Assembly (NCBI GenBank): GCA_025716815.1
Contig: JAIXMN010000005.1
Span: 1,817,683-1,881,682, forward strand
Origin: Dichotomocladium elegans
Lineage: Eukaryota; Mucoromycota; Mucoromycetes; Mucorales; Lichtheimiaceae
Reading direction: 5' to 3'
Length of the DNA stretch: 64,000 nt
This document shows, piece after piece, positions 13,401 to 26,966 of the stretch; position 1 is the first letter of the stretch, and each line of letters opens with the position of its first letter. The translations under genes were made by a program, and so were the position numbers. A model generated the notes under the pieces. That model did no database searches. It was given only the letters and a program-made list of their open reading frames with translations, and was not told the DNA's origin.

Positions 13401-14257
13401 TTGTCGTGAATATACAGGATTTTCAAGTAAGAAGTTTACCACAAAGTTTAATTGTTGTTATAGATCGTAGTATTTCGTTGCTATCCTCTTGTCAAAATTT
13501 AAACGCAATGCTGCAAAACGCTTTCAGGAAAGGCTATAGGTGAGACTTTCTTAGCTTCCTTTTTTTTTTTTTTACACAAGAATAGCAACGACGCAAGAGT
13601 AACAGTTGGGAGAATATGGGTCGCAGATAAATAGATGATTCTCTTTATTAAATAGAAGCTACTTGGATATTTATACTGTTTTGATATCTAATAGTAATAT
13701 AAGGAGACAAGAGAGAAAAGAGAAAAGGAAAAAGGTATTCGGTAATACGGCTGAAGAGAAATTACGACCGGCTGTGCTTTCACTGGGGAAGAGGATAGAA
13801 AAAGGATAAAATAAGGAATGGCATTAATCGGTAGAGCAATCTGTGCTTGCCACATTAGAGTTCGTGGACCAATTGAAATGCTAGCAGTACCAGTTATCCT
13901 TACCAGCAGAGGTCGTAGATATCATCTCCTTCCTTCGTGAGGATTATGGATACCCATTCGTACCAGTTTTACCATATCAATTGTCTGTTCTTTACATACT
14001 ATTAGCATAATGGTATTTAACATTATAGTATTTATTATCATTCGCCCATACCTAGCTTTAGTAACCCTCAAGAGCAGTAGTATATATACGATATCAATCC
14101 ATAAAAATTAAAGAGACATCCAGTTCGGTTATTCTTACAATTGGCCAAAGCCTACCAGCCAAAATAACCGACATACTACGACCTAATCACGTGATCTACA
14201 TTTCCGAAGAATGTAAAATAAAACCAATTGAACTTCACTGGTCAGATCTCAATTAAC
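10499..14257. other. gene-free AT-rich stretch of about 3.8 kb
   Basis: No convincing exon, tRNA or mobile-element protein in any frame. An open frame of 127 codons at 12667-13050 lacks an ATG start, any domain or flanking splice signals and is probably chance. A T-run lies near 13560-13574. The stretch ends at a tRNA-Asn gene. It may hold decayed repeats that only a genome-wide comparison would reveal. Confidence 0.5.
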
Positions 14258-14330
14258 GCTCCTAGGTGGGCTCGAACCACCAACCTCCTGATTAACAGTC
14301 AGACGCGCTAGCCAATTGCGCCATAGAAGC
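14258..14330 (-). tRNA. tRNA-Asn (anticodon GTT)
   Basis: 73 nt on the minus strand fold as a complete cloverleaf. The acceptor arms GCTTCTA and TAGGAGC pair (one G-U), the anticodon loop is CTGTTAA (anticodon GTT), and the T arm holds GGTTCGAGCCC. The A-box-like GGCGCAATTGG and the T-arm B-box fit an internal RNA polymerase III promoter. No intron is present. Its 5' end (14330) is exactly where the first LINE begins on the opposite strand, so natural upstream flanking DNA has been displaced while the gene itself is intact. Confidence 0.95.
14317..14330. repeat. target-site copy 1 (first 14 nt of the tRNA)
   Basis: The plus-strand 14-mer tgcgccatagaagc is nt 1-14 of the tRNA-Asn gene. The same 14-mer recurs perfectly at 19545-19558 and with three mismatches at 24737-24750, that is, at each end of the two LINE copies. 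This is best read as a target-site duplication. Confidence 0.85.
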
Positions 14331-14484
14331 GAGACCTTGTCGAGCATCGCGCGCGGCGAATTCGAGGTCTTTATATACTTTTTCGGTAAAACACTTTCTC
14401 CGGCCCGTCGAAATTTTCGCCCCAACAACTGCCAACATTACAAACTCCATTACGACTCCCGCAACCACCACCGACACTTCTAAC

Positions 14485-15882
14485 GTGCCTGACAGCAGCA
14501 CCACGGCTCCCAACACACGTGCAAAGCGTAGGCATTCACTTGTGCCACGTGCAACAAAGATCCCAGGCCCACCACAGCCGGTGAAAAAGCGAATGATGCA
14601 ACCTTCACCAATGCGCCAGGACGCTATCACTTCCGAGATAGAGGCATCATCGGCGACACGGATCAGCGATAACCTGCCCTCCCCGCAAGCGACATCCCCT
14701 GTGGATCAGCCATTTGATAAATTAATACAGGAAATGCAAGCAAATGACACACCCATCGCAACTCCAGTGGAGGTGCCACACTCAATTAACTTGTTTAATT
14801 GGGTGCAAACTGTACAACGGCAGCTCTCAGAGATGAAACATCAACTTGCCGAACAGAAGCAGCTGGTGTCTGCCCATGACAACATGATGGGCCAATTGCA
14901 AGAACTCCTCACTGAGCGAGATCAACTCAAAGCAGCCCTTGCTCAGGAACAAGCGATTGCGGCAGAACTCCGTCAAGAACTAGACGCATTGCGTAACCCC
15001 ACCTCGCAGCAGCCATACACCCCAACGCAAGAAGGTAGCATCATGCCAGAACGCCCATCTGCGGTGGTGCGTTTCATGGACGCAGTAGCTATTCCAGGCA
15101 CCTCTACCATGGATTCGCGGCATCGTCCTGCCAATCTTACCAATGCCACACCGCAAAAGAATTCCCCGACTACCTGGGCTTCTGTTGCAAAAAAGCACAT
15201 GCCTCCATCTCGCGCCCAACGTCGTCGCCAACGCGTCGATCAACCAACCGAAGGTATGAGAAACTGGGCTAGCCGCTGCTTCGCACCGGCAGCAGTTGAT
15301 GGCAATCGGGGGTACGCGATGCTGTATCTCTCATCCCCTCGTCGAACGCAACACAGTGAGGTCAGAAGGGCGCTTGCAATCCTTGGTGTACCTCAAGGGC
15401 GCATCATAGACGTGCATTTTCCCGTGCGCGGTGTTACCAGCTTGCTGGTACACTCCTCCTTCGTCAACGAGCTTAAAGAGAAGCTCGCTCAGGCTAAAAT
15501 AACGTTGATCGATTTTGATCCCGTCGCAGCTAATACGATAGTCCAGCCCGCTTATGCCGACCTTACTGCCGATCAACGCATCAAGAAAGCTCGTGAGTTG
15601 TACTCAGAGCGAATGCTGAGGGCTTGCATCCGCCTGCCCAAAGCGCACCTAGGCTATGCAATCCTCCGCCATTTCGTGGCCGATGTGGCAGCCAATGACC
15701 CGCACCATCTGGACCAGTCAATCCTCGAGCGCTTCCTCTTAGCACGCCCTCGCCCAACACGGAGACAATTAGCGGTTCCATCCCAAGACGATGCACGAAC
15801 CGTTTTTGGCACCCTCCAGACGCCAGAGGACGCTATTGACGTAGACGGTGAAGATGCAACGACGGAAGACATGCAACAATGA
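14485..15882 (+). CDS. LINE copy 1 ORF1 protein (RNA-binding/coiled-coil)
   Basis: Open frame of up to 465 codons. The codon at 14485 is GTG; the first in-frame ATG is at 14593, so the true start is uncertain. The N-terminal part is Pro/Ser/Thr-rich and basic. Residues of about 110-175 form a Gln/Leu/Glu-rich coiled coil. A conserved globular part follows (from TWASVAKK to about FHRV-like PVRGVTSLLVH), whose spacing is reminiscent of an RRM-like ORF1 fold, though this is not proven. The end is acidic. No CCHC zinc knuckle is seen. The stop TGA (15880-15882) overlaps the ORF2 ATG as ATGA. This type of protein coats the element RNA and acts as chaperone in retrotransposition. The frame is uninterrupted, unlike that of copy 2. 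Confidence 0.82.
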   Translation: MPDSSTTAPNTRAKRRHSLVPRATKIPGPPQPVKKRMMQPSPMRQDAITSEIEASSATRISDNLPSPQATSPVDQPFDKLIQEMQANDTPIATPVEVPHSINLFNWVQTVQRQLSEMKHQLAEQKQLVSAHDNMMGQLQELLTERDQLKAALAQEQAIAAELRQELDALRNPTSQQPYTPTQEGSIMPERPSAVVRFMDAVAIPGTSTMDSRHRPANLTNATPQKNSPTTWASVAKKHMPPSRAQRRRQRVDQPTEGMRNWASRCFAPAAVDGNRGYAMLYLSSPRRTQHSEVRRALAILGVPQGRIIDVHFPVRGVTSLLVHSSFVNELKEKLAQAKITLIDFDPVAANTIVQPAYADLTADQRIKKARELYSERMLRACIRLPKAHLGYAILRHFVADVAANDPHHLDQSILERFLLARPRPTRRQLAVPSQDDARTVFGTLQTPEDAIDVDGEDATTEDMQQ

Positions 15883-18800
15883 TAAACCACATCAAGATTG
15901 GTTTATTGAATGCTCGAGGACTTCAACGATCACCGGACGAGCTATTACGACATTGCGTTAATTTCAACATTGACCTTATTTTACTAACCGAAACATACCT
16001 AACTAACGGACGACTTACCACGGACTGGATCCAACATCACAACTATGCACACACACCGACCAACGGCACACGCGGCATTGGAGGGCTCACATTACTGGTT
16101 CGACCAGAATTCCCATACCACATCCACCGCCTCGCAAACTCATCACCCTACATCCTCAGCTTCGAGCTGGGGCATTACATGATCCATGGACTCTACCTAC
16201 CGCCTTCCCTCCCACTACAACAATACAACCGCATCCTCGACAACCTCACTATCGAAGAGAACACCATTCTCCTGGGCGACTTCAATACGCGGATCACCGA
16301 TCTTCTTGGTGATCGGATCACTAACGAGCGTGGCCCCCCGTTCCGTGATTGGATCATGGAAAGGGGACTCCACATCTGGAACAGTACCTTGGCTCGAGGC
16401 CAATTTACATTTGAGTCCCATCTAGGCTCAAGTATCATCGACCTCTTCGTCTCTCGCTACGACGCCGTACGCGACCCATCCCTTGTAGTCCATCAGGAGC
16501 TCTCACTGAACTCTGACCACCATCTTTGCGAGTTTTCTTTTGTCCCGACCGTCCCGATCCAACCAACGCCCTTACCTAACGCTCCACGCCTACACTGGAA
16601 ACTACAGCGTCTTCAAGACCCAGAAATACTCGAGCTGTACATACAGCAGTTCACCCGAATCGCTGAGCCCATAGGGAAAGAAATCGACACGCACCTCAAT
16701 ATCAGTAACTTCCATCTAACACGCGCCGACATTATCGAACAACTTGGTACGCGCATTACTAACTGCATTACACAGGCATTGGATGAGAGCGTGACTCGAG
16801 GGCGTATGCGGCCAAAGCATTGGAAATGGTTTTGGACCGAGGAGCTCCAGCGTTTGGCAGATGCCCGCGAAGCGGCATATCGTGCGTGGCGTACCGCCGG
16901 CGAAAACTTTGTTGCGCGGTCTATCCTTTGGGCGCACTTTATCCGAACTAGGGACACATTCGACAAAGAACTTCGACGGACTCGACGAACACACTGGAAG
17001 CAATTCTGCCGGACAATGGAACACAAGCCTCACGGCGAGATGAACGCGGTAATTAAACGAATGCGTCGTAGCCGACAGACCTCCGTGTGGCTATCCATCA
17101 TGATGGGCCACACCAAGCAGCAGAGATGATGGCGTCACACCTTGAGAGCGTGTTCGGGGGACCCTACAAGAGGGCACCCGACCACCTCCTGGTATTGATC
17201 CTGCTGAGATGGGTGCTTCACCCTTTCGACTCAAGGATGTCATAGACGCTATCCGTGTCCAGCCCAGCCGTAAAGCACCAGGCGTCGATCACATCACTGG
17301 GGCCATGCTGAAGCCAATTGCTGTCCCTCTCGCTGAGCTCCTCACGGACTTTTTTACGCTCTGCTGGCGATGGTCGTGGACTCCAAAAGAATGGCGCATA
17401 GCGCAAGTCGTACCCATTTACAAGAAAGGCGACCCTGCACAGCCTGGCAACTTCAGGCCAATCAGCCTCACAAGCCTTTTTCGCAAAATACTGGAAAGAT
17501 GCATGCTCCCACGTCTCCTGTCCAAAATTCCTGCCTTGGACATTGCTCAAGGTGGATTCCGACAAAACCGTGGTGCGCTGGACCAAGCCTTTTGCTTGCA
17601 GATGCTGATGCGCCGGTATCAGCAGATGTATGATGCGTGGCCTGTCGTGGCCTTTCTGGATATTAAGGCCGCCTATGATTCCGTTGACAGAAAGGTGATC
17701 TGGTCTCGATTACGAGGTCATGTCCCTGGGCCTTTACTACAGCTATGCCGCCACCTCTTCGAAGATGTTCACGTCGCTGTCATTCTTCAGCATCATCAGT
17801 CACGGTTTATCCAACCTGCCCGCGGTGTCCTGCAGGGCTCTATCCTCAGTCCCCTGCTATATGCTGTATTTATTGACTCACTTCCACAGGCCCTGCGCTC
17901 CCGTGTGCCCGTCTTATCGCGCCCGCTGGTCATCCGCACCACTCCGGTCAACAATGTCACAGAAGCCAGAAGCAATAGACTGAACTATACGCAGAACCTT
18001 CGAGGAGGTCGTCCGCGCCGCCGCCCAGACACTGACTTGCTAATTGCCAATGCGTTACTCTACGCAGACGATGTCGCGCTCGTTGGATCACCTGAAGACA
18101 TGGTGCTCATGCTCGCTATCGCTGAAATCCACTCAATCGAACTCGGCTTCCGCTGGCACCCCGACAAATGTGTCATGCTCAACGCCCCTGATGGCTGGAA
18201 CTTTAGCCTGTATAACTCTCCAATCCCCGCCGCCCCATCCTTCAAGTACCTTGGTGTCCCCTTTGGTGCCCACGGATTGGATCGCAACCGTCTCGTCCTA
18301 GAACGTATGGGAAAAGCTACTAGTGCCATGAGCGTACTGCAACAAGTCGGCATCCATCGATATGGCATTGGCATGTGGGCTGCTTTGCGTGCCTATCGAA
18401 CGTTCGTGCGTCCCGTCCTGGAATACGGTCTCGCCATTGCCCCGCTAACAGCTTCACAGCTACAACTTCTGCACAAAGCACAGGTCAGCTGTGTCAAACT
18501 CGCAATGAACAGCACGGTGTCTCGTCGTCTCCCCACCATCGTTCCTATGGTAATGGCTGACCTCCCATCGATGCAGCTCCGGGTACAAATACTGCAAGCC
18601 AAGTTTGTAGCCCGTGCATACGATTTGCCAACCCCAACAATGTTGCGCTCAATCATGCTAACATGGTTAAGCCACATGCGTACTGATGACAACTGGCGAA
18701 AGCTATCGAGAGCAAACCCGGTGTGGAGAACGTGGAAAAGCCTGGTCACCGCCACCGACCCACCGCTGGACCCAATTCATGCCGCGGTCAGCCACCACCG

Positions 18801-19305
18801 TGACTTGGAATTCGCTCGCCGCCGCCGATTCCCCACCATCTCACGACTCCGCCCAACGAGGCAGATCGACCCGATTATGTTTCTGCCAGCATGCACGCGT
18901 GACCGTCACCGTTTGCAGCACTGGCGAATGCACTGGCTGCCGTCATATCCACTTCGCCCATGTCGGTGTGGACAGGAAAAAGCCGACCGCATGCATTACA
19001 ATGCCTGTCCATTGGTGCTCGCCGCCATGGAGGACCTTCAGTCAGCATATCCACACCCGTTCCCAGGTAATGAACACCCCGTGGATTTTTTGTGCAACGC
19101 GCTTCCCCGGAATGCTTCCGGACTCAAAACCCGACAATGGATTGACACCTGGCCTGCCCTACTTCGCTACCTTCGACGGGTAGACTTTCTCAGTCATGCC
19201 GAAGCCGATCCTCATGAGTACATGGGCGAAGACGACCCAGTGCTGGCGCTCGACCAAGCCCTTGCAGCGGATCTGGCCCGACTTAGACAAGAAGCTGTAG
19301 ATTAG
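15879..19305 (+). pseudogene. LINE copy 1 ORF2: APE endonuclease + reverse transcriptase, frameshifted
   Basis: Begins at ATG 15879 inside the ORF1 stop. The endonuclease shows LLNARGL, LLTETYL, LLGDFNTR, SSIIDLF and NSDHHL, the full set of APE-type motifs. The reverse transcriptase, open from about 17180 to 19305, shows SRKAPGVDHITG, FRPISLTSLFRKILER, VAFLDIKAAYDSV, GVLQGSILSPLLY and the catalytic YADD at 18061-18072. Near the C-terminus CRCG...HYNACP (about 18963-19010) is a Cys/His motif of the kind found at LINE C-termini. The frame breaks twice in the linker: near 17080-17095 and again near 17165-17190, each a shift of -1. Unless one is programmed, the protein is not made whole. Confidence 0.9.
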
Positions 19306-19544
19306 ACCCCACAACCAGTACGGCTTGCCCTCACGCTGGTGCCAAAAGGCACATACTTTTTCATTTATTTTCTTCTTTCTTACCAGTGGTTGGCTTTTCC
19401 CCTCAGGGGTTTTTAATGCACCACTTGGAAATTCACACTGTATTCCCATACATCTATCAGCCCACTTATAGACGCTAATGGAGCGGCCATATGCCAACAG
19501 GCGGGGGCCATACGTCTCCTCAATAAAATATAAAATGTTTTGAC
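19306..19544 (+). other. LINE copy 1 3' UTR
   Basis: Non-coding tail of the element. It shares with copy 2 an identical T-rich box ending in aatgcacca and a ggagcggcca box, in an otherwise diverged region. Such conserved 3' blocks are commonly the part recognised by the reverse transcriptase, which is inference here. Confidence 0.65.
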
Positions 19545-19558
19545 TGCGCCATAGAAGC
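19545..19558. repeat. target-site copy 2 (tRNA 5' 14-mer)
   Basis: Perfect copy of the first 14 nt of tRNA-Asn lying between LINE copy 1 and LINE copy 2, with no other tRNA sequence attached. Confidence 0.85.
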
Positions 19559-19712
19559 GAGACCTTGTCGAGCATCGCGCGCGGCGAATTCGAGGTCTTT
19601 ATATACTTTTTCGGTAAAACACTTTCTCCGACCCGTCGAAATTTTCGCCCCAACAACTGCCACCATTACAAACTCCATTACGACTCCCGCAACCACCACC
19701 GACACTTCTAAC

Positions 19713-21049
19713 GTGCCTGACAGCAGCACCACGGCTCCCAACACACGTGCAAAGCGTAGGCATTCACTTGTGCCACGTGCAACAAAGATCCCAGGCCCAC
19801 CACAGCCGGTGAAAAAGCGAATGATGCAACCTTCGCCTATGCGCCAAGACGCTGTTGATCCCGAGATAGTGTCAACATCAGCCACACCGATCAGCAACAG
19901 TCTGCCAACTTCGCAGTCGGCAGAGCGAACCAAGCAGACATTTGCGAACTTGATGGAGGAAGTGCACAAGAACGAAAACCAGGCGGAAGCCATGGTAGAA
20001 CTCCCACACTCCATTAATTTATTTAATTGGGTACAGAGTGTGCAACATCAGCTCTCCGAGCAGGCGAAGCTATTATCCGCACATGACACGATGATGAACC
20101 AACTCCAGGAGCTACTTGCTGAACGGGACCAGCTCAAGGCAGACCTCGCCCAGGAAAGGGCATCTACTGCAGCACTGCGGAAGGAGTGAGTACCTTACGT
20201 AACTCACTACAACAGACGGAAGAAAATCCGATGCAGGTCGAGAGCAACCAGCCTGAAGGCACACCAGCCGTTGTACGATTCATGGATGCAGTCGCAGTGC
20301 CGGGATCTTCCACCATGGACTCACGCCATCGTCCAGTGAACGCAACATCCACTGCTAGCCAGCTCACATGGGCCTCAGTAGCACGGAAAAACACACCCCC
20401 CTCTCGCGCCCAGCGCCGTCGGCAGCGCACCGATCAACCTACTGAAGGCATGCTCACCTGGGCAACCCGCTGCTTTGCAGCCGCAGCATCTCCGGAGAAC
20501 CGAGGTTATGCTATGCTGTCCTTTGCATCACCACGCCGCACACAACACAGTGAGATCCGACGGGCACTCTCAATTCTGGGTGTCCCTCAAGGGCGCATCA
20601 TTGATGTACACTTCCCAGTTCGCGGTGTTACCAGTTTGCTGGTACACGCATCATTTGTGTGCGAACTTAAGGCGAAACTCGCAGAGGCCAAGATCACCAC
20701 CATCGATTTTGATCCCATCGCAGCCAACACCATCATTCAGCCGGCGTATGCCGGATTTACAGCAGAGGAACGTGTCGCAAAAGCCCGCGAGCTCTATCAA
20801 CAACGGATGCTTCGAGCCTGTCTTCGAATGCCCAAGGCACATCTGGGTTTCTCGATCTTGCAACATTTTGTGAATACCGACGTGGACGACCCGCACCATT
20901 TGGATGCTACCGTACTAACGCAATTCCAGGCGGTCCGTCAACGCCCAGTACGACCTGCCCCGCGGCCAATCCCATCTGTGGAAGAAGCTGAAAAGATTCT
21001 CGGCATTAGCCGAGATGTGGACGACGACGAAATGCACGACAGTCAATGA
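19713..21049 (+). pseudogene. LINE copy 2 ORF1, one frameshift
   Basis: Homologue of copy 1 ORF1. The first frame (GTG at 19713; first ATG later) runs through the coiled coil and stops at TGA 20187-20189. The rest continues in the -1 frame from about 20186 to the stop at 21047-21049. The C-terminal part keeps TWASVARK, PQGRIIDVHFPVRGVTSLLVH and the YQQRMLRACLRMPKAHLG segment seen in copy 1. Like copy 1, its stop codon overlaps the ORF2 start as ATGA at 21046-21049. Confidence 0.82.
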
Positions 21050-24000
21050 TAGATCGACTTTGCATCGGTCTATTAAACGCGGCTGGCATCAACCGGTCGC
21101 CTGACGAGGTGGTTCGACATTGCACCAACATGAATGTCGACATTTTAATTCTCACAGAAACATACCTTATGCAAGGTCGACTCAACACACATTGGACGCA
21201 AACCCACAACTATGCGCGCAGGCCGCGCAATGGCACTCGCGGTTTTGGCGGTGTCTCACTCTTGGCCCGCCCTGACTTGCCTTTCCATATCCACCCACAT
21301 GCCATCACCTCGCCCTATATCCTCTCCTTCACCATGGGGCCTTATACAGTGCACTCCCTCTACTTACCGCCATCACTCGATCTTCTTACAATCCGTGACC
21401 TTCTCAACAGCCTCACCATCGACGACCGCACCATCGTCCTTGGTGATCTCAACACTCGGCTCCGCTCACTCGGTGACCACGACCAGAACGACCGCGGTCC
21501 TACTCTTCGCGACTGGGTGATACAGCATGGCTTGCATATCTGGAATGGTTCACTCACCTATGGCCAGCCCACATTTGCATCTGCCCTGGGCACGAGCATC
21601 ATCGACCTGTTCATCTCAAACCGGTTAGCTGTAAGAGATCCGTCCCTGGTGATCTGCAGCGATGTCTCTCTCAACTCAGACCACCACCTGTGTGTCTTCT
21701 CGTTCTGACAGTCACGCCTCTAACAACACTACCAGAACCTACAGCGCCCCGGCAACATTGGCGGCTACAACGACTCAACGACCCGGATATCATGGCTCTT
21801 TTCATCGACAAGTTCACCATCGCAACAGATCCTCTGCTTGACGAGATTCTCTCACATCTGACCGACGAGTTTCATATCTGCCATCGTCACCTAATAGAGG
21901 ATTTCGGTGACCGGATCACCACCAGCATCCAGTCCGCCTTGGATGCGAGCGTCACGCGTGGAAAGATGCGACCTCGTCACTGGAAATGGTTCTGGAATGA
22001 CGAGCTCCAGCGTCTCGCAGACCGACGTGAAGAAGAATACCGCCGCTGGCGAAACGCCCCTGGTGACCTAGTCAATCGCTCCATGCTGTGGAATCGGTTC
22101 CAGGCCGCGAAGAAAGCCTTCGGAAGGGAACTAAGATCGACACGCCGCCAACAGTGGAAGCAATTTTGCAAAGCCATGGAACGCAACACAAGGGGAGGTC
22201 AATGCCGTCCTCAAGCGCATGCGCCGCAGCCGTACTGCCCCCACCACCCTCTCCCATCCTGATGGTCCACTGCACGCTGCCTCCAGCATGGCAACTCATC
22301 TCGAGCAATTTTTGGCGGAAATCGTTTGGTAGACTCCACCCCTCCTGCAGCCATCGACCCATCCCTGCTTGGCATATCGCCCTTTAATGCCTCGGACATT
22401 CGTGCTATCATCAAGCAAATGCCGTCGCGGAAAGCCCCCGGAAGCGACCACATCACTGGGGCAATGCTCAAGCCCATCGCCATCCCTCTGTCCAAACTCC
22501 TGGAGGCGTTGTTTACCCTGTGCTGGCGCTGGTCGTGGACCCCTCCTGGATGGCGGACCGCCCAAGTAGTCCCCATCTACAAGAAAGGAGATCCCTCACA
22601 GCCGAGTAACTATCGTCCAATCAGTCTCACCAGCCTCTTTCGCAAGATACTCGAGCGATGCCTGCTGCCGCACTTGCTCGATCACATACCTGCATTGGAT
22701 ATGGCACAAGGTGGCTTTAGGGAGAACCGCGGTGCCTTGGACCAAGCCTTCTCGCTGTACATTCTCATGCGTCGATTTCAGCAGGAGCATGGTGAATGGC
22801 CAGTGGTTGCGTTCCTCGACATCAAAGCGGCGTATGACTCTGTGGATCGCCAGGTCATCTGGGAACACCTGCGTGGGCACCTCCCACCTGCTTCCTTTCG
22901 GCTCTGTCGTCATTTGTTTGAGGATGTTCAGCTGGCTGTCATCCTGAAAAACTACCAATCGCACTTCATCCGGCCCGCAAAAGGCGTCCTGCAAGGCTCG
23001 ATCCTTAGCCCTCTGCTCTACGCCATTTTCATCGACACGCTCCCGACGGCCCTCCGAGTTAATGCACACCTGCGCCGGCCCCTCCTCCTTCGCACAACAA
23101 GCCTCGAGGGGGTTTCTGAAGAAGCAAGCAACCGTCTCCGCTACTATCGAAGCCCTGGTGGCGGCCGGCCCCCACCTCGGATCGACAACCACATCATGCC
23201 AGTCAACGCACTGCTCTACGCCGACGACGTTGCCCTCTTTGGTACTGCTGAGGACATGTGCCACATGCTGGGCATGGCAGAGCGACACTCGCGCCAGCTA
23301 GGATACCGGTGGAACCCTGAAAAATGCGCAGTACTGAATGCTCCAGCTAGTGACATTTTTACGTTGTACTCGCGGCCTCTTCCAGTGGTGCAAGCATTCA
23401 AATACCTTGGCATCCCTTTCAGCAAAGAAGGCATTGACCGCGACCAACTGGTACAAGACCGCATTAGCAAGGCCACAGGTGCGATGGCTACGTTCCGACA
23501 TATGGGGGTGCATCGTTATGGTCTCGGTCTGTGGGCAGCACTGCGTACGTATCGTACCTTTGTTCGCCCCATTCTCGAGTATGGCCTTGCCATAGCCCCC
23601 TTAACATACGACCAGCTCGCCCTCCTCCAAAAGGCGCAAGAAAGCTGCGTCAAGCTTGCAATGAACCAGCCGACTGCCCGCCGATTGCCAACGATTGTGC
23701 CAATGGTGATGGCAGATCTCCCGTCAATGACATTGCGAATGCGAATCCTGCAGGTCAAGTTTGTGACGCGCGGCAATGCATTACCGACTCCGACAATGCT
23801 GCGTGCGGTCATTTTGTCCTTCCTGCAACACCAGCGGACCGATGAGCCGTGGCGTAAAATCTCGCGTGCCAACCCTCTTTGGACCACCTGGCGTGGCCTC
23901 GTTTTGTCAGATGAGCCACCTCAATATCCAGTCCGTGAAGCAGTGCTACACCACCGCGATCTTGAGCTGGAGAAGCGTCGCGCCCAGAAACCAGCTGTCG

Positions 24001-24464
24001 CCCGCCTACGACCTACGCGCCAGATTGACCCGGTGCTGTTTCTCCCCGCCACCTCACGTGATCGGCATCGCCTGGTGAACTGGCGTCTCCATTGGCTTCC
24101 CTCCTTCCCGCTCAAGAACTGCCGCTGCGGGGCTGAGGCTGCCACGCGTACGCACTACACGGAGTGTCCTCTGGTGGAGCAGGCCGCATTGGCCCTCAAA
24201 CGCGCCTTTGGCTTTGTACCGGTCTCAAATGCGCTCCACCCCGTTGACCACATCATCAACAGCCTGCCACGATCAGCAGACAAGCTCCAGAGCGGGCGCT
24301 GGCAGCTCGCCTGGCCAGCCTTGCTGCACTATCTGCGCCGCGTCGACTTTCTTAGCCACCCCGATGCTGATGATTTCGAAGACGACGACGATGATCCCTC
24401 TGCTCCCATGGCTGAAGCTGTTCAAGCGGCACTTGAAGCTGCCCGCGTCGAGCTGGCTGACTAA
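21046..24464 (+). pseudogene. LINE copy 2 ORF2: APE endonuclease + reverse transcriptase, three frame breaks
   Basis: Starts at ATG 21046. Endonuclease motifs: LLNAAGI, LILTETYL, VLGDLNTR, TSIIDLF, NSDHHL. The frame breaks near 21695-21705 (stop TGA at 21706-21708), again near 22190, and a third time near 22325. The reverse transcriptase then runs open to 24464 with SRKAPGSDHITG, VAFLDIKAAYDSV, GVLQGSILSPLLY, YADD at 23217-23228 and a C-terminal CRCG...HYTECP motif. The tail is Asp-rich. The break near 22325 falls at the same endonuclease-RT linker position as a break in copy 1 and has the same -1 sense. Confidence 0.9.
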
Positions 24465-24736
24465 CTCCACCTGAGGCCTTTCTCTTGGTGTCTGGTATTA
24501 GCATCACATGCTCTTTTTTTCTCATTTTCATTTTCTCCCATTTTGGGTCTATATTCTTTTTTTTTTTTTGACAGGTGGTTGACTTTTTCCTCTTTTGGGG
24601 GTTTTTAATGCACCATTCTGATCGGCATTGTAACTTTAATTTTTATCCGACATCCTTTTGTACTGTCACGGAGCGGCCACATGCCCATAGGCGCCGGCCA
24701 CAACCATGCTCCAAAACCAATAAATAACTTTTCAGT

Positions 24737-24770
24737 TGCACGGTAGAAGCTGAGGCCTTATTGACACAAG
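24737..24770. repeat. degraded target-site copy 3 with possible element 5' remnant
   Basis: 24737-24750 matches the tRNA 14-mer at 11 of 14 positions. The next 16 or so bases (gaggccttattgac) still resemble the first bases of the LINE (gagaccttgtcgag). This could be the relic of a third, older tandem element or chance extension of an old target duplication. Confidence 0.5.
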
Positions 24771-25540
24771 TGTCCGAAATATGTATAGGCTTCCACAACA
24801 ATATTTGGGCGGAATCTCATGGTCTAAACCCTTATCTGCTTACATGTGCAGATGCCCCCATACAGATTACATGATGGAACACCACAAGACTTCAGCATTT
24901 CACTGCAGTTTTCAACGGGGCAACAGAGAAATTAGCGTAGAGTCCAAAGCGATGGGATAATCAAGCACCCGAATATAATATGACTAGCGATATGCTTACT
25001 GTTTTCAAGCAAAAGGAAGAGAAAGCATTTTTTAGACGACCCCCAATGATGTTGGGGCAGAGGGATATATGGCAAAAAGGCTATAGCAAAAGTGACTCCA
25101 ACTTATTTGTTAGCTTTTTGGATATTATACGGCCTGAGATACATACATGCTTTTGAGGCTCAAGTCACAATCCTACTTCGTCTGTCATATCCTGATTCTA
25201 GTGATTGGTTGGCTAAGATCTTCCACAGTTCTGCAGATGATGCATGTTACGACCCGTGGCCATTATTCAAATGGTATGTTAGTTATGTATATTTGTACGC
25301 TTATCAAATGAAAAAGAGAACTATAGGTTTAAGAGCTTGTATTGTTCTCCGTGACGGAAACGCTGAAGCTATAGTCGAGTCTGGTATCAGCGTATCGATG
25401 ATTAGCATCAACTTTACTAAAACATTGAATTTTGCTATGGACGATGACAATTTAACACCCTTAGCATAGGACTGTAAATTCGGCTGATTGTTACTTCCAA
25501 TGATGAAGAAAGCATATTGATGCCCCATACTTGCATTGAT
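24771..25540. other. decayed region with retropepsin-like fragment
   Basis: Mostly non-coding. One frame, 25092-25469, is open for 125 codons without an ATG start. Its last third, around LRDGNAEAIVESGISVSM, resembles the aspartic protease core of Ty3/Gypsy-type elements (normally ...VDSGAS...) with the catalytic Asp apparently replaced by Glu. No gag, RT or LTR is seen nearby, so this is at best a dead fragment. Confidence 0.35.
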
Positions 25541-25767: not shown

Positions 25768-26966
25768 CAGTGTTTTCAAAAATTAAAGTCGTACCCCAGC
25801 CAGTTCTGAAGTCGCAGGATTACAAAAATAGAAGTCGTGTTTTGCCCAGAAATCTTTACGCATGATGACAAAGCAAATGTCGCAATACACGGCGAAACTT
25901 GGCAAATTCATCTCTACCCATTTACATTCTGAAATGAGCAATCTATTTTTTTACGATGGTCAAGACCATGTCGTTGATGAAGAAATGTACTCTGCAATCC
26001 GTTTGTTCTCATACAGAATATCTGCTTAGCATATCTTGCAAAGATAACTTTGAACTTATTGCCACGCACATTCCCAAGAGAAAGGATACAGACATTCGGA
26101 TGAAAAAAGCGGGGATCAGTTACACAGCGTACACTGACCAAGACAAGATCAGATTTTTCAAGCTGATGTTTGAGAAGGTATTGAGTGCATCAGCTGCTAG
26201 GAATCCATGTTCGTTCAGCTCAGCGACGGACATCACAGTACGGAAAGGACCCTGACAGCATTTTTAAGAAACGTAGAGGCAGAGGTCGTTCATGTATTCT
26301 CAACGAAGAGGATAAGAGTGTTATTTTAGAATGGGTTGTTGAGAATCCGTCAATTGTCCTAGAGCAGCTGATGGAACAACTGCTCCAGAGATTTAAGAGT
26401 CTCAAAGTATCCAAAACGACGCTCCATCAATTTATGAAAACCGAATGCAATTTGTCATTGAAAATGGCTCGGTTTCAGCCTGTAGACAGGAATAGCGATG
26501 CAAAGGTCCAAGAACACCTTGACTGGGTGCGCAGATGGGACACGACCGACATCGACCTTAGAGAAAACTGCGTTTTTCTTGATGAGTCTGGATTCCATAT
26601 TAACATGAAGCGCAGCATGGCATGGTCCAAGAAAGGGACTTGTGCAGTAGTTACAGTGCCGAATGCAAGAGTAAAAACAGCTACCATCTTGGGAGCAATC
26701 TCGGCATCAGGCATCATTAAATGTAGCTTGAGACTCCTACGACCACTAGCCAAAGAAGAAACAGAGCGGGGCAGCCCGCAGCTGCAAGCAAGGAAACTAT
26801 CACTGGACATTATTATCTCAGCTTCCTTAAGACTACCATGGATGAAATGGATAAGCATGAACATCTGAAGGGACATTATTTGGTAATGGATATTGCACCC
26901 ATTCATAAAGCTGAGGATATTGATGCGCCTATCTTCCACCCTCACCGCGCCCAGGAGGAGGAATAA
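25768..26966 (+). mobile_element. Tc1/mariner-like copy B (decayed)
   Basis: Begins at a TA followed by cagtgttttcaaaa, a typical Tc1/mariner terminal-repeat start, and the rest of its 5' end matches copy C. It contains the transposase pseudogene. A matching right-hand terminal repeat was not found, so the right limit is approximate. Confidence 0.65.
25934..26966 (+). pseudogene. Tc1/mariner (IS630-like) transposase pseudogene
   Basis: Degenerate DDE transposase. It starts MSNLFFYDGQDHVVDE, loses frame near 25990 (a 2-nt loss relative to copy C) and again near 26210, then stays open to about 26720 with a helix-turn-helix region, KRRGRGR, SKTTLHQFMKT and FLDESGFHINMKRSM around the first catalytic Asp. 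A further shift near 26720-26800 leads into GHYLVMDIAPIHKAEDID, where the usual MDNAPIH has Asn to Ile. The expected PPYSPELNPIE block with the third acidic residue is missing. Not functional. Confidence 0.8.

Follow-up and report, generated by a model that had tools for sequence, protein, structure and literature searches.

Tandem retrotransposons flush with nucleotide 1 of tRNA genes in the mucoralean fungus Dichotomocladium elegans

In the genome of Dichotomocladium elegans (assembly GCA_025716815.1), long interspersed nuclear elements (LINEs) of several related families adjoin nucleotide (nt) 1 of tRNA genes, with the element 5' end facing the tRNA 5' end wherever a tRNA was seen, and copies of tRNA nt 1-14 lie past the element 3' ends. 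We consider it probable that a clade of LINEs with an apurinic/apyrimidinic endonuclease (APE) has a single, fixed integration site in tRNA genes, and that a stagger of 14 bp rebuilds the tRNA. The analysis started from a stretch of 64,000 nucleotides (contig JAIXMN010000005.1, positions 1,817,683 to 1,881,682 of the forward strand; hereafter the window, counted from its first letter), in which an earlier note, made from the letters alone, had placed two related tandem LINEs, the first abutting nt 1 of a tRNA-Asn gene, and three copies of tRNA nt 1-14. Other contigs and loci are given by our C and L numbers, respectively.

Coordinates, alignment and domain searches bear out both of these descriptions. 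The intact tRNA-Asn(GTT) gene occupies 14257..14330 of the minus strand (Rfam, 65.7 bits; ARAGORN, 14256-14331), with nt 1 at 14330 and the duplicated stretch of nt 1-14, TGCGCCATAGAAGC, at 14317..14330 (minus strand). LINE copy 1 (family A, 3' end type A1; 14331..19544, plus strand; 5,214 bp) is flush with tRNA nt 1 and is followed by a perfect copy of tRNA nt 1-14 (TGCGCCATAGAAGC; 19545..19558, minus strand), the target-site duplication. Next to it begins LINE copy 2 (family A, 3' end type A2; 19559..24736, plus strand; 5,178 bp), past which the third 14-mer, TGCACGGTAGAAGC (24737..24750, minus strand), is decayed and agrees with the tRNA at 11 of 14 bases. Over 4,906 aligned bases, the identity between the two LINE copies is 73%. 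In copy 1, the open frame that contains open reading frame 1 (ORF1; 14296..15882, plus strand, measured stop to stop) gave no significant Pfam domain over the cut-off, and ORF2 is in two open pieces of different frame, one with an APE-type endonuclease (15852..17129, plus strand; PF14529, 4.6e-11; PF03372, 7e-07) and one with a reverse transcriptase (17146..19305, plus strand; PF00078, 5.6e-21). Copy 2 has more broken frames, with ORF2 in three pieces; the one piece submitted to the domain search contained the reverse transcriptase (22263..24464, plus strand; PF00078, 1.6e-24). The best PDB matches of the reverse transcriptase were LINE-type and R2 reverse transcriptases, and no RNase H domain was found after it in the reverse transcriptase-bearing pieces of both copies (Pfam, E <= 0.001). 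Copy 1 thus has the make-up of an APE-type LINE, namely an APE-type endonuclease and a reverse transcriptase without a long terminal repeat (LTR), and the other hallmarks of LINEs were also seen: target-site duplication, head-to-tail copies, and 5'-truncated copies (tails on C58 and C61, and a tail of 96 bases at L158). The conserved 5' segment extends over 14331..14390 in copy 1 (plus strand; TTTATATA at 14370-14377) and 19559..19618 in copy 2 (plus strand). By eye, the first ~240 bases of the two copies (14331-14570 and 19559-19798) are nearly identical despite 73% identity overall, as an exchange of the 5' part would produce.

To survey the element 5' ends, the genome (39.4 Mb in 122 contigs) was searched with the first 22 bases of the element, allowing up to 3 mismatches, and with the reversed 22-mer as control. 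The element 22-mer gave 58 matches (39 exact) and the control gave none. Half of the 58 (29) adjoined a tRNA gene called by ARAGORN, flush with nt 1 in 25 cases, at +1 in three (C69, C71, and C76), and at +7 in one (C45). Another 26 stood at a perfect copy of tRNA nt 1-14 past the 3' end of another element, and the tRNA types of these 14-mers were those found among the 29 genes; the junction on C56 has one extra base, and on C60 the 14-mer supplies the first two bases of the 22-mer match. For the remaining three (C21, C85, and C116), the first bases were separated by LTR-like DNA; on C21, the only one traced beyond this DNA, an element start and a tRNA-Asp 14-mer were found on the far side. 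Since there were 58 matches against no control match, and 55 of the 58 lay at a tRNA gene or a perfect tRNA 14-mer, the pattern at the 5' ends, which the earlier note had proposed to check in this way, is not due to chance. The 29 genes were those for Glu(CTC) (5), Ile (5), Thr(AGT) (4), Asn (4), Phe (2), Glu(TTC) (2), Lys (2), Asp (2), Thr(CGT) (1), Tyr (1), and Met (1). Together, families A (Asn, Met, Ile, Lys, and Tyr), B (Ile, Thr, Phe, Lys, and Tyr), and C (Glu and Asp) target nine tRNA types, at the fixed position on the edge of an RNA gene that characterises site-specific LINEs of multicopy RNA genes.

The 22-mer might have been a conserved host motif rather than the element end, or part of a 54-bp duplication including the first 40 bases of the element; both were ruled out, because it was absent from 19 of 20 flanks sampled from the 45 scored tRNAs without an adjoining element match (the exception, L101, resembles a decayed element start by eye). 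Only ~41-46 bases of the element start are present at three sites (C44, C56, and C83), and those on C44 and C56 run on, by eye, into rearranged element remnants. At C83:33698 (L062 and L112), 41 bases of element start stand past a 14-mer and are followed by unrelated DNA. In viral_contigs, 55 pattern matches were obtained and tblastn gave no relative; two 20-mer matches there were on near-identical contigs, in which neither a tRNA nor a significant LINE match was found.

The element 3' ends are fixed sequences (..TTTTGAC, ..TTTTCAAT, ..TTTGAAC, and ..TTTTCGAT) in place of a poly(A) tail, and they run directly into the 14-mer. Pattern searches covered three of the four 3' end types in families A-C, and 3' ends of the fourth, A1, were seen directly before tRNA 14-mers on reading the 58 5' junctions. 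The A2/C pattern gave 68 rows (reversed control, 24). Of its one-mismatch rows, 20 of 22 continued into a tRNA 14-mer (18 perfect; the two decayed ones belong to copy 2 of the window and C112:1202828), and the remaining two were copies of a single different sequence; the 46 two-mismatch rows were judged unrelated by eye. The B pattern gave 25 rows and its reversed control 33, and the weak B rows are therefore at chance level; ten of the 25 continued into a tRNA 14-mer (8 perfect and 2 with 13/14), and of the 15 without one, 14 were judged unrelated from the rows alone and one was fetched. Thus 30 3' ends (20 + 10) were followed by a tRNA 14-mer, perfect in 26. One exact B match (L158, on C28) ends a family B tail that is 5'-truncated to 96 bases and lies between perfect 14-base direct repeats, with neither a tRNA nor a recognised processed RNA in the 141 bases seen; the 14-base stagger is therefore a property of the element, and off-target insertion exists. 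The following 3' junction was seen for 16 tRNA-adjacent elements, a set that excludes C65, whose two 5' ends are 20 kb apart; at 15 of these junctions the 14-mer was that of the element's own tRNA type (14 perfect; 13/14 on C71). The earlier suggestion of a 14-base target-site duplication that keeps the tRNA whole is thus upheld by 5' and 3' junctions genome-wide.

In 13 tRNA-anchored arrays, the 5' end on the tRNA side was better preserved than the outermost one in 10 of 11 non-tied cases (Wilcoxon one-sided p = 0.0015). Note that the references for this test were three 60-base 5' ends read off outputs, one of which is identical to the inner copy of the window, and that the sample contains three outer ends cut or rearranged after 41-46 bases and the outer end on C65, 20 kb away. 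This order of decay fits the repeated use of one rebuilt site and, in the window, an older copy 2 whose target was re-used by copy 1, as had been proposed. Duplication of ready-made tRNA-LINE blocks, instead of many insertions, might be the source of the pattern, and near-identical copies do exist (98-99.9% over 1.5-1.7 kb), with the same arrangement on C58 and C61. However, the tRNA types differ, the DNA behind the tRNAs differs, and different families stand at the same site, so that block duplication is highly improbable as the general explanation.

A genome search with ORF2 gave at least 84 matches (61 of 189 candidates were scored) and widened the target range. Family D adjoins tRNA-Val flush within one base (L114 and L128); family F adjoins tRNA-Ser(AGA) within one base (L122; perfect 14-mer in L133) and also tRNA-Leu(AAG) (L132); and family G adjoins tRNA-Gln(CTG) (L125; perfect 14-mer in L086). 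With Val, Ser, Leu, and Gln added to the nine types of families A-C, the related families together use 13 tRNA types. Thus, of the single tRNA entry site supposed earlier, the fixed position stands and the restriction to tRNA-Asn does not. In a midpoint-rooted tree of ORF2 parts, built from the families of this genome and database relatives without named reference LINEs, families A, B, C, and G grouped together (100/100), as did D, E, F, and H (100/100; their joint subgroup had only 86/71); the families were interspersed with proteins of Lichtheimia, Circinella, Umbelopsis, Rhizopus, Mucor, and Absidia. Since families at tRNA genes occur in both groups, tRNA targeting is found on both sides of the tree.

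A DNA search with the tRNA of the window found four tRNA-Asn genes, 100% identical, all four with an element flush at nt 1; as two of the arrays reach contig ends (C13 and C112), further tRNA-Asn genes are possible. The corresponding search with tRNA-Glu found eleven genes, ten of them with element DNA at or near nt 1. Both tRNA-Glu(TTC) genes have a flush element. Among the tRNA-Glu(CTC) genes, five have an element 5' end (one at 7 bp), two a 5'-truncated tail of 427-428 bp at nt 1, one only ten element-start bases followed by LTR-like DNA, and one is free by eye. Over the 59 tRNAs scored (63 of 1,319 candidates were scored, so that this is not a genome total), an A-C element was flush at nt 1 in 14. 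The tRNA-Asn(GTT) is essential; the occupied genes should therefore work, provided that no such gene is missing from the assembly.

After insertion, the element 5' end would be the new upstream flank of the tRNA. The DNA of the window element matches the starts of families B and C only over the first ~50-60 bases, the reverse transcriptases of A2 and B or C are 50-55% identical, and all of the first 22 bases are kept in 39 of the 58 starts. This pattern points to selection on that stretch, as LINE promoter, as upstream region of the tRNA, or as both. In the window, TTTATATA lies 40-47 bases from the tRNA. In 19 free tRNA flanks, TATA starts mostly at 20-34; because the TATA of the element is farther out, it is probably no plain copy of the host promoter. 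An LTR-like element, with two ~400-base copies 5.2 kb apart (L006:1092-1520, L095, L096, and L134; C13:30310-35883 and C79:565896-571459), was also seen beside tRNAs. It lies 10-13 bp upstream of tRNAs with no recognised LINE start between, and, at two LINE-flanked tRNAs (tRNA-Tyr of L006 and tRNA-Glu of L134), inside the first bases of the LINE, ~10-11 bp from the tRNA. If such elements are guided like Ty3, the LINE-flanked tRNAs would carry the initiation complex of RNA polymerase III (Pol III) at the usual place, and the occupied genes may continue to be transcribed.

From the junctions, the following course of insertion can be proposed. The element endonuclease would nick the tRNA-sense strand within box A, between A14 and nt 15, and the free A14 end would serve as primer for reverse transcription of the LINE RNA with its fixed 3' end and no poly(A). 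The other strand would be cut opposite the -1/+1 boundary, presumably as the later of the two cuts, and fill-in of the 14-base stagger would copy tRNA nt 1-14 to the far side and leave the tRNA whole. Since the site would be rebuilt at each insertion, it would be reusable, and head-to-tail arrays would grow with the youngest copy beside the tRNA. The putative nick context on the tRNA-sense strand is A14^R15, then GG within a few bases (examples are CGCA^ATTGG, CTCA^GTTGG, TCTA^GTGG, and TGTA^ATGG). The corresponding context of the off-target copy L158, GACA^GCAGG, resembles the CTCA^GTTGG of tRNAs. The element 3' ends have up to 4 bases in common with the target beside the nick (for instance, CAAT at tRNA-Asn and CGAT at tRNA-Lys), which may help the RNA 3' end to pair with the target.

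As families differ in their tRNAs, the target is most likely chosen by recognition of the DNA sequence around box A, perhaps with help from Pol III factors. Alternatively, bound Pol III factors (TFIIIC/TFIIIB) might themselves bring the LINE to tRNA genes, as proposed for TRE5-A of Dictyostelium, with local sequence playing a minor part. The 13 tRNA types with box A at the same distance in all, and the LTR-like element, which demonstrates tRNA-guided insertion in this genome, agree with such a role, and TRE5-A, as far as the accessible parts of the reports go, needs the B box and has an ORF1 protein that binds TFIIIB (PMC5911963, PMC5391098). However, insertion here is flush in 25 of 29 cases, whereas TRE5-A scatters around 47 bp (same restriction; PMC5391098); the tRNA sets differ between families; and the off-target copy and family E (see below) keep the 14-base stagger away from tRNAs. 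We therefore regard guidance mainly by Pol III factors as unlikely.

The copies of family E that were found at a junction adjoin repeats resembling the hepatitis delta virus (HDV) ribozyme rather than tRNAs, with the element 5' end head to head with the repeat. Family E1 was seen at one locus (L115), whose repeat scored 34.3 bits with Rfam HDV_ribozyme, below the cut-off of 50 (E-value, 0.061 in 11.5 kb and 0.011 in 2 kb). Family E2 was seen at five (L121, L130, L163, L164, and L165); its repeat received no Rfam call and was assigned as HDV-like by hand from putative helices (P1, GGGATA/TATCCC; P3, GCC/GGC; a P4 hairpin; P2, AGCAGCC/GGCTGCT). A genome search with RF00094 gave 23 weak matches, none over the cut-off, and weak matches were also found in 4 of 14 control genomes. 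In the free repeats read, a G precedes the part shared with the filled copies (10/10 for the repeat of E2 and 4/4 for that of E1). When this G is taken as ribozyme nt 1 (closing G.U pair), family E would insert between nt 1 and 2. Tandem junctions have duplications of 13-14 bases (L080 and L129), and the presumed nick sites (GTGG^TCGA and GCAG^CCGG) differ from those at tRNAs. On the sequences alone, the geometry appears nearly the same as that of the tRNA families, at another structured RNA. Both repeat types have at least 40 genome matches each. Separately, six pairs of E1-type repeats are inverted and 10.6-12.8 kb apart, as if marking the ends of a large transposon (E-type repeat loci L136-L147 and L159-L165; C31:537150/548162, C28:126195/138039, and C1:929155/941274).

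These observations raise the possibility that the LINEs enter the DNA for 5' ends of RNAs cleaved by RNase P or by self-cleavage, for example via the RNA itself or an R-loop. The tRNA nt 1 is indeed the RNase P site, and the insertions of family E are no more than one base away from the 5' ends of two different HDV-like repeats, with the same stagger. Against this, family E would enter one base beside the presumed cleavage site, self-cleavage of the repeats is putative, the ribozyme of E2 is not called by Rfam and that of E1 is below the cut-off, and the off-target copy is at no recognised processed RNA within its 141 bases; to our knowledge, moreover, no mechanism exists for LINE entry guided by RNA processing. 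Such an entry route is quite improbable. A broader and tentative view, possible but doubtful at present, is that the niche of the clade is the 5' boundary of structured RNA genes, that host tRNAs live with element-supplied flanks, and that one branch moved to HDV-like ribozymes with its geometry unchanged; the clade may then read a property of cleaved RNA 5' ends rather than one sequence.

Several observations weigh against integration by the clade at a fixed tRNA site or call for a wider description of its targets. Copies away from tRNAs, which the earlier note had named as contrary evidence, do occur, namely the off-target copy (itself with a perfect 14-base repeat) and family E at ribozyme repeats. 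A B-like copy at C56:190144 (L124) has no tRNA within 1.6 kb. Junctions were also unrecognisable at two family D copies, L118 and L117 (the latter with no more of tRNA-Val than roughly its first 27 bases), and at an E2 copy on C34 (L120). No intact tRNA is found at a 5' fused A copy (C77, L016), an F copy past LTR-like DNA (L123), or an F fragment (L131). Three 14-mers do not correspond to their place: a Tyr 14-mer follows the element at an Ile gene (C95:17058), a Met 14-mer follows the outer copy in an Asn array (C13:99518), and a tandem copy of family D (L082) matches the tRNA-Val(AAC) 14-mer in only 11 of 14 bases; we assume that recombination between arrays is perhaps the cause. Further, box A is conserved in every tRNA, and position alone cannot separate recognition of sequence from that of Pol III factors. 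Tandem arrays of family H (C97; L081, L116, and L127), of the same clade, likewise gave no recognisable target site.

As for the rest of the window, a third decayed element past the outer duplication, from 24751, was unsupported (406 of 2000 shuffles scored as well), and an HDV-like ribozyme within the element's own 5' end was rejected (no Rfam match of this kind in 14200-24900 at E <= 5). An open frame at 26185-26868 resembles a Tc1/mariner-type transposase, judged by eye.

The significance of these elements is that many essential genes contain a LINE target that is exact to the base and restores itself. The predicted box A-cutting endonuclease would lend itself to direct assay, and a compact LINE whose site is fixed and harmless would be of interest for DNA insertion. 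How a parasite can take over the sequence upstream of an essential tRNA gene, in all the copies found, and yet spare the host becomes a testable question; if the niche proposed above is real, all four tRNA-Asn genes found run on 5' flanks supplied by elements. Targeting of tRNAs and ribozyme repeats in one clade would offer a natural experiment in the change of LINE target choice.

A fungal LINE at tRNA nt 1 was not found in the literature searched, which excluded preprints and most subscription journals; the comparison below holds for the accessible parts of the cited papers. For Mucoromycota, Ty3 elements are found together with tRNAs in Rhizopus oryzae (PMC2699053), non-LTR elements and tRNAs are mentioned separately for Lichtheimia corymbifera (PMC4133162), and Helenus and Ajax (PMC10886601) have no bearing on LINEs at tRNAs. 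Ty3 and Ty3-like LTR elements also lie upstream of tRNA genes (PMC5006619, PMC5911963), as does the LTR-like element here, but their integrase works close to where Pol III starts rather than at nt 1. Several families of Dada DNA transposons cut tRNA box A (nt 8-13) in many tRNA types (PMC8869645, PMC3706591); these are DDE transposons with duplications of 6-7 bp that insert inside the tRNA gene, whereas the present elements have LINE proteins, a 14-bp duplication, and a tRNA left whole. NeSL-1_TV, LIN15_SM, LIN25_SM, and Dewa are likewise sequence-specific LINEs of tRNA genes or spacers (PMC4640811, PMC3706591), but each family uses one tRNA type (Pro, Arg, or Glu; Dewa, a tRNA-Leu spacer), they are not fungal, and the NeSL-related families have another, restriction-like type of endonuclease. 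NLTR-A of Dictyostelium purpureum is a LINE very near the tRNA 5' end; it inserts 2-6 bp upstream and has an RNase H domain, and the accessible part of the report does not mention a duplication of tRNA nt 1-14 (PMC5006619), whereas the distance here is 0 bp in 25, 1 bp in three, and 7 bp in one of 29. A further likeness is to TRE5-A of Dictyostelium, an L1-type non-LTR element that inserts ~47 bp upstream of tRNA genes (PMC5391098, PMC5006619, PMC5911963). It too is an APE-type LINE in opposite orientation upstream of many tRNA types, and forms tandems by re-insertion at an occupied tRNA. However, the insertions of TRE5-A show some scatter, its copies end in poly(A), and it depends on Pol III factors, and the TRE5/TRE3 positions (~47 bp upstream; 40-150 bp downstream) differ from those here, flush at nt 1 in 25 of 29 and within 1-7 bp in the others, with a 14-bp copy. 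The known tRNA-targeting LINEs, as far as these sources go, use other positions or single tRNA types, unlike the families of D. elegans, which share one position across many tRNA types.

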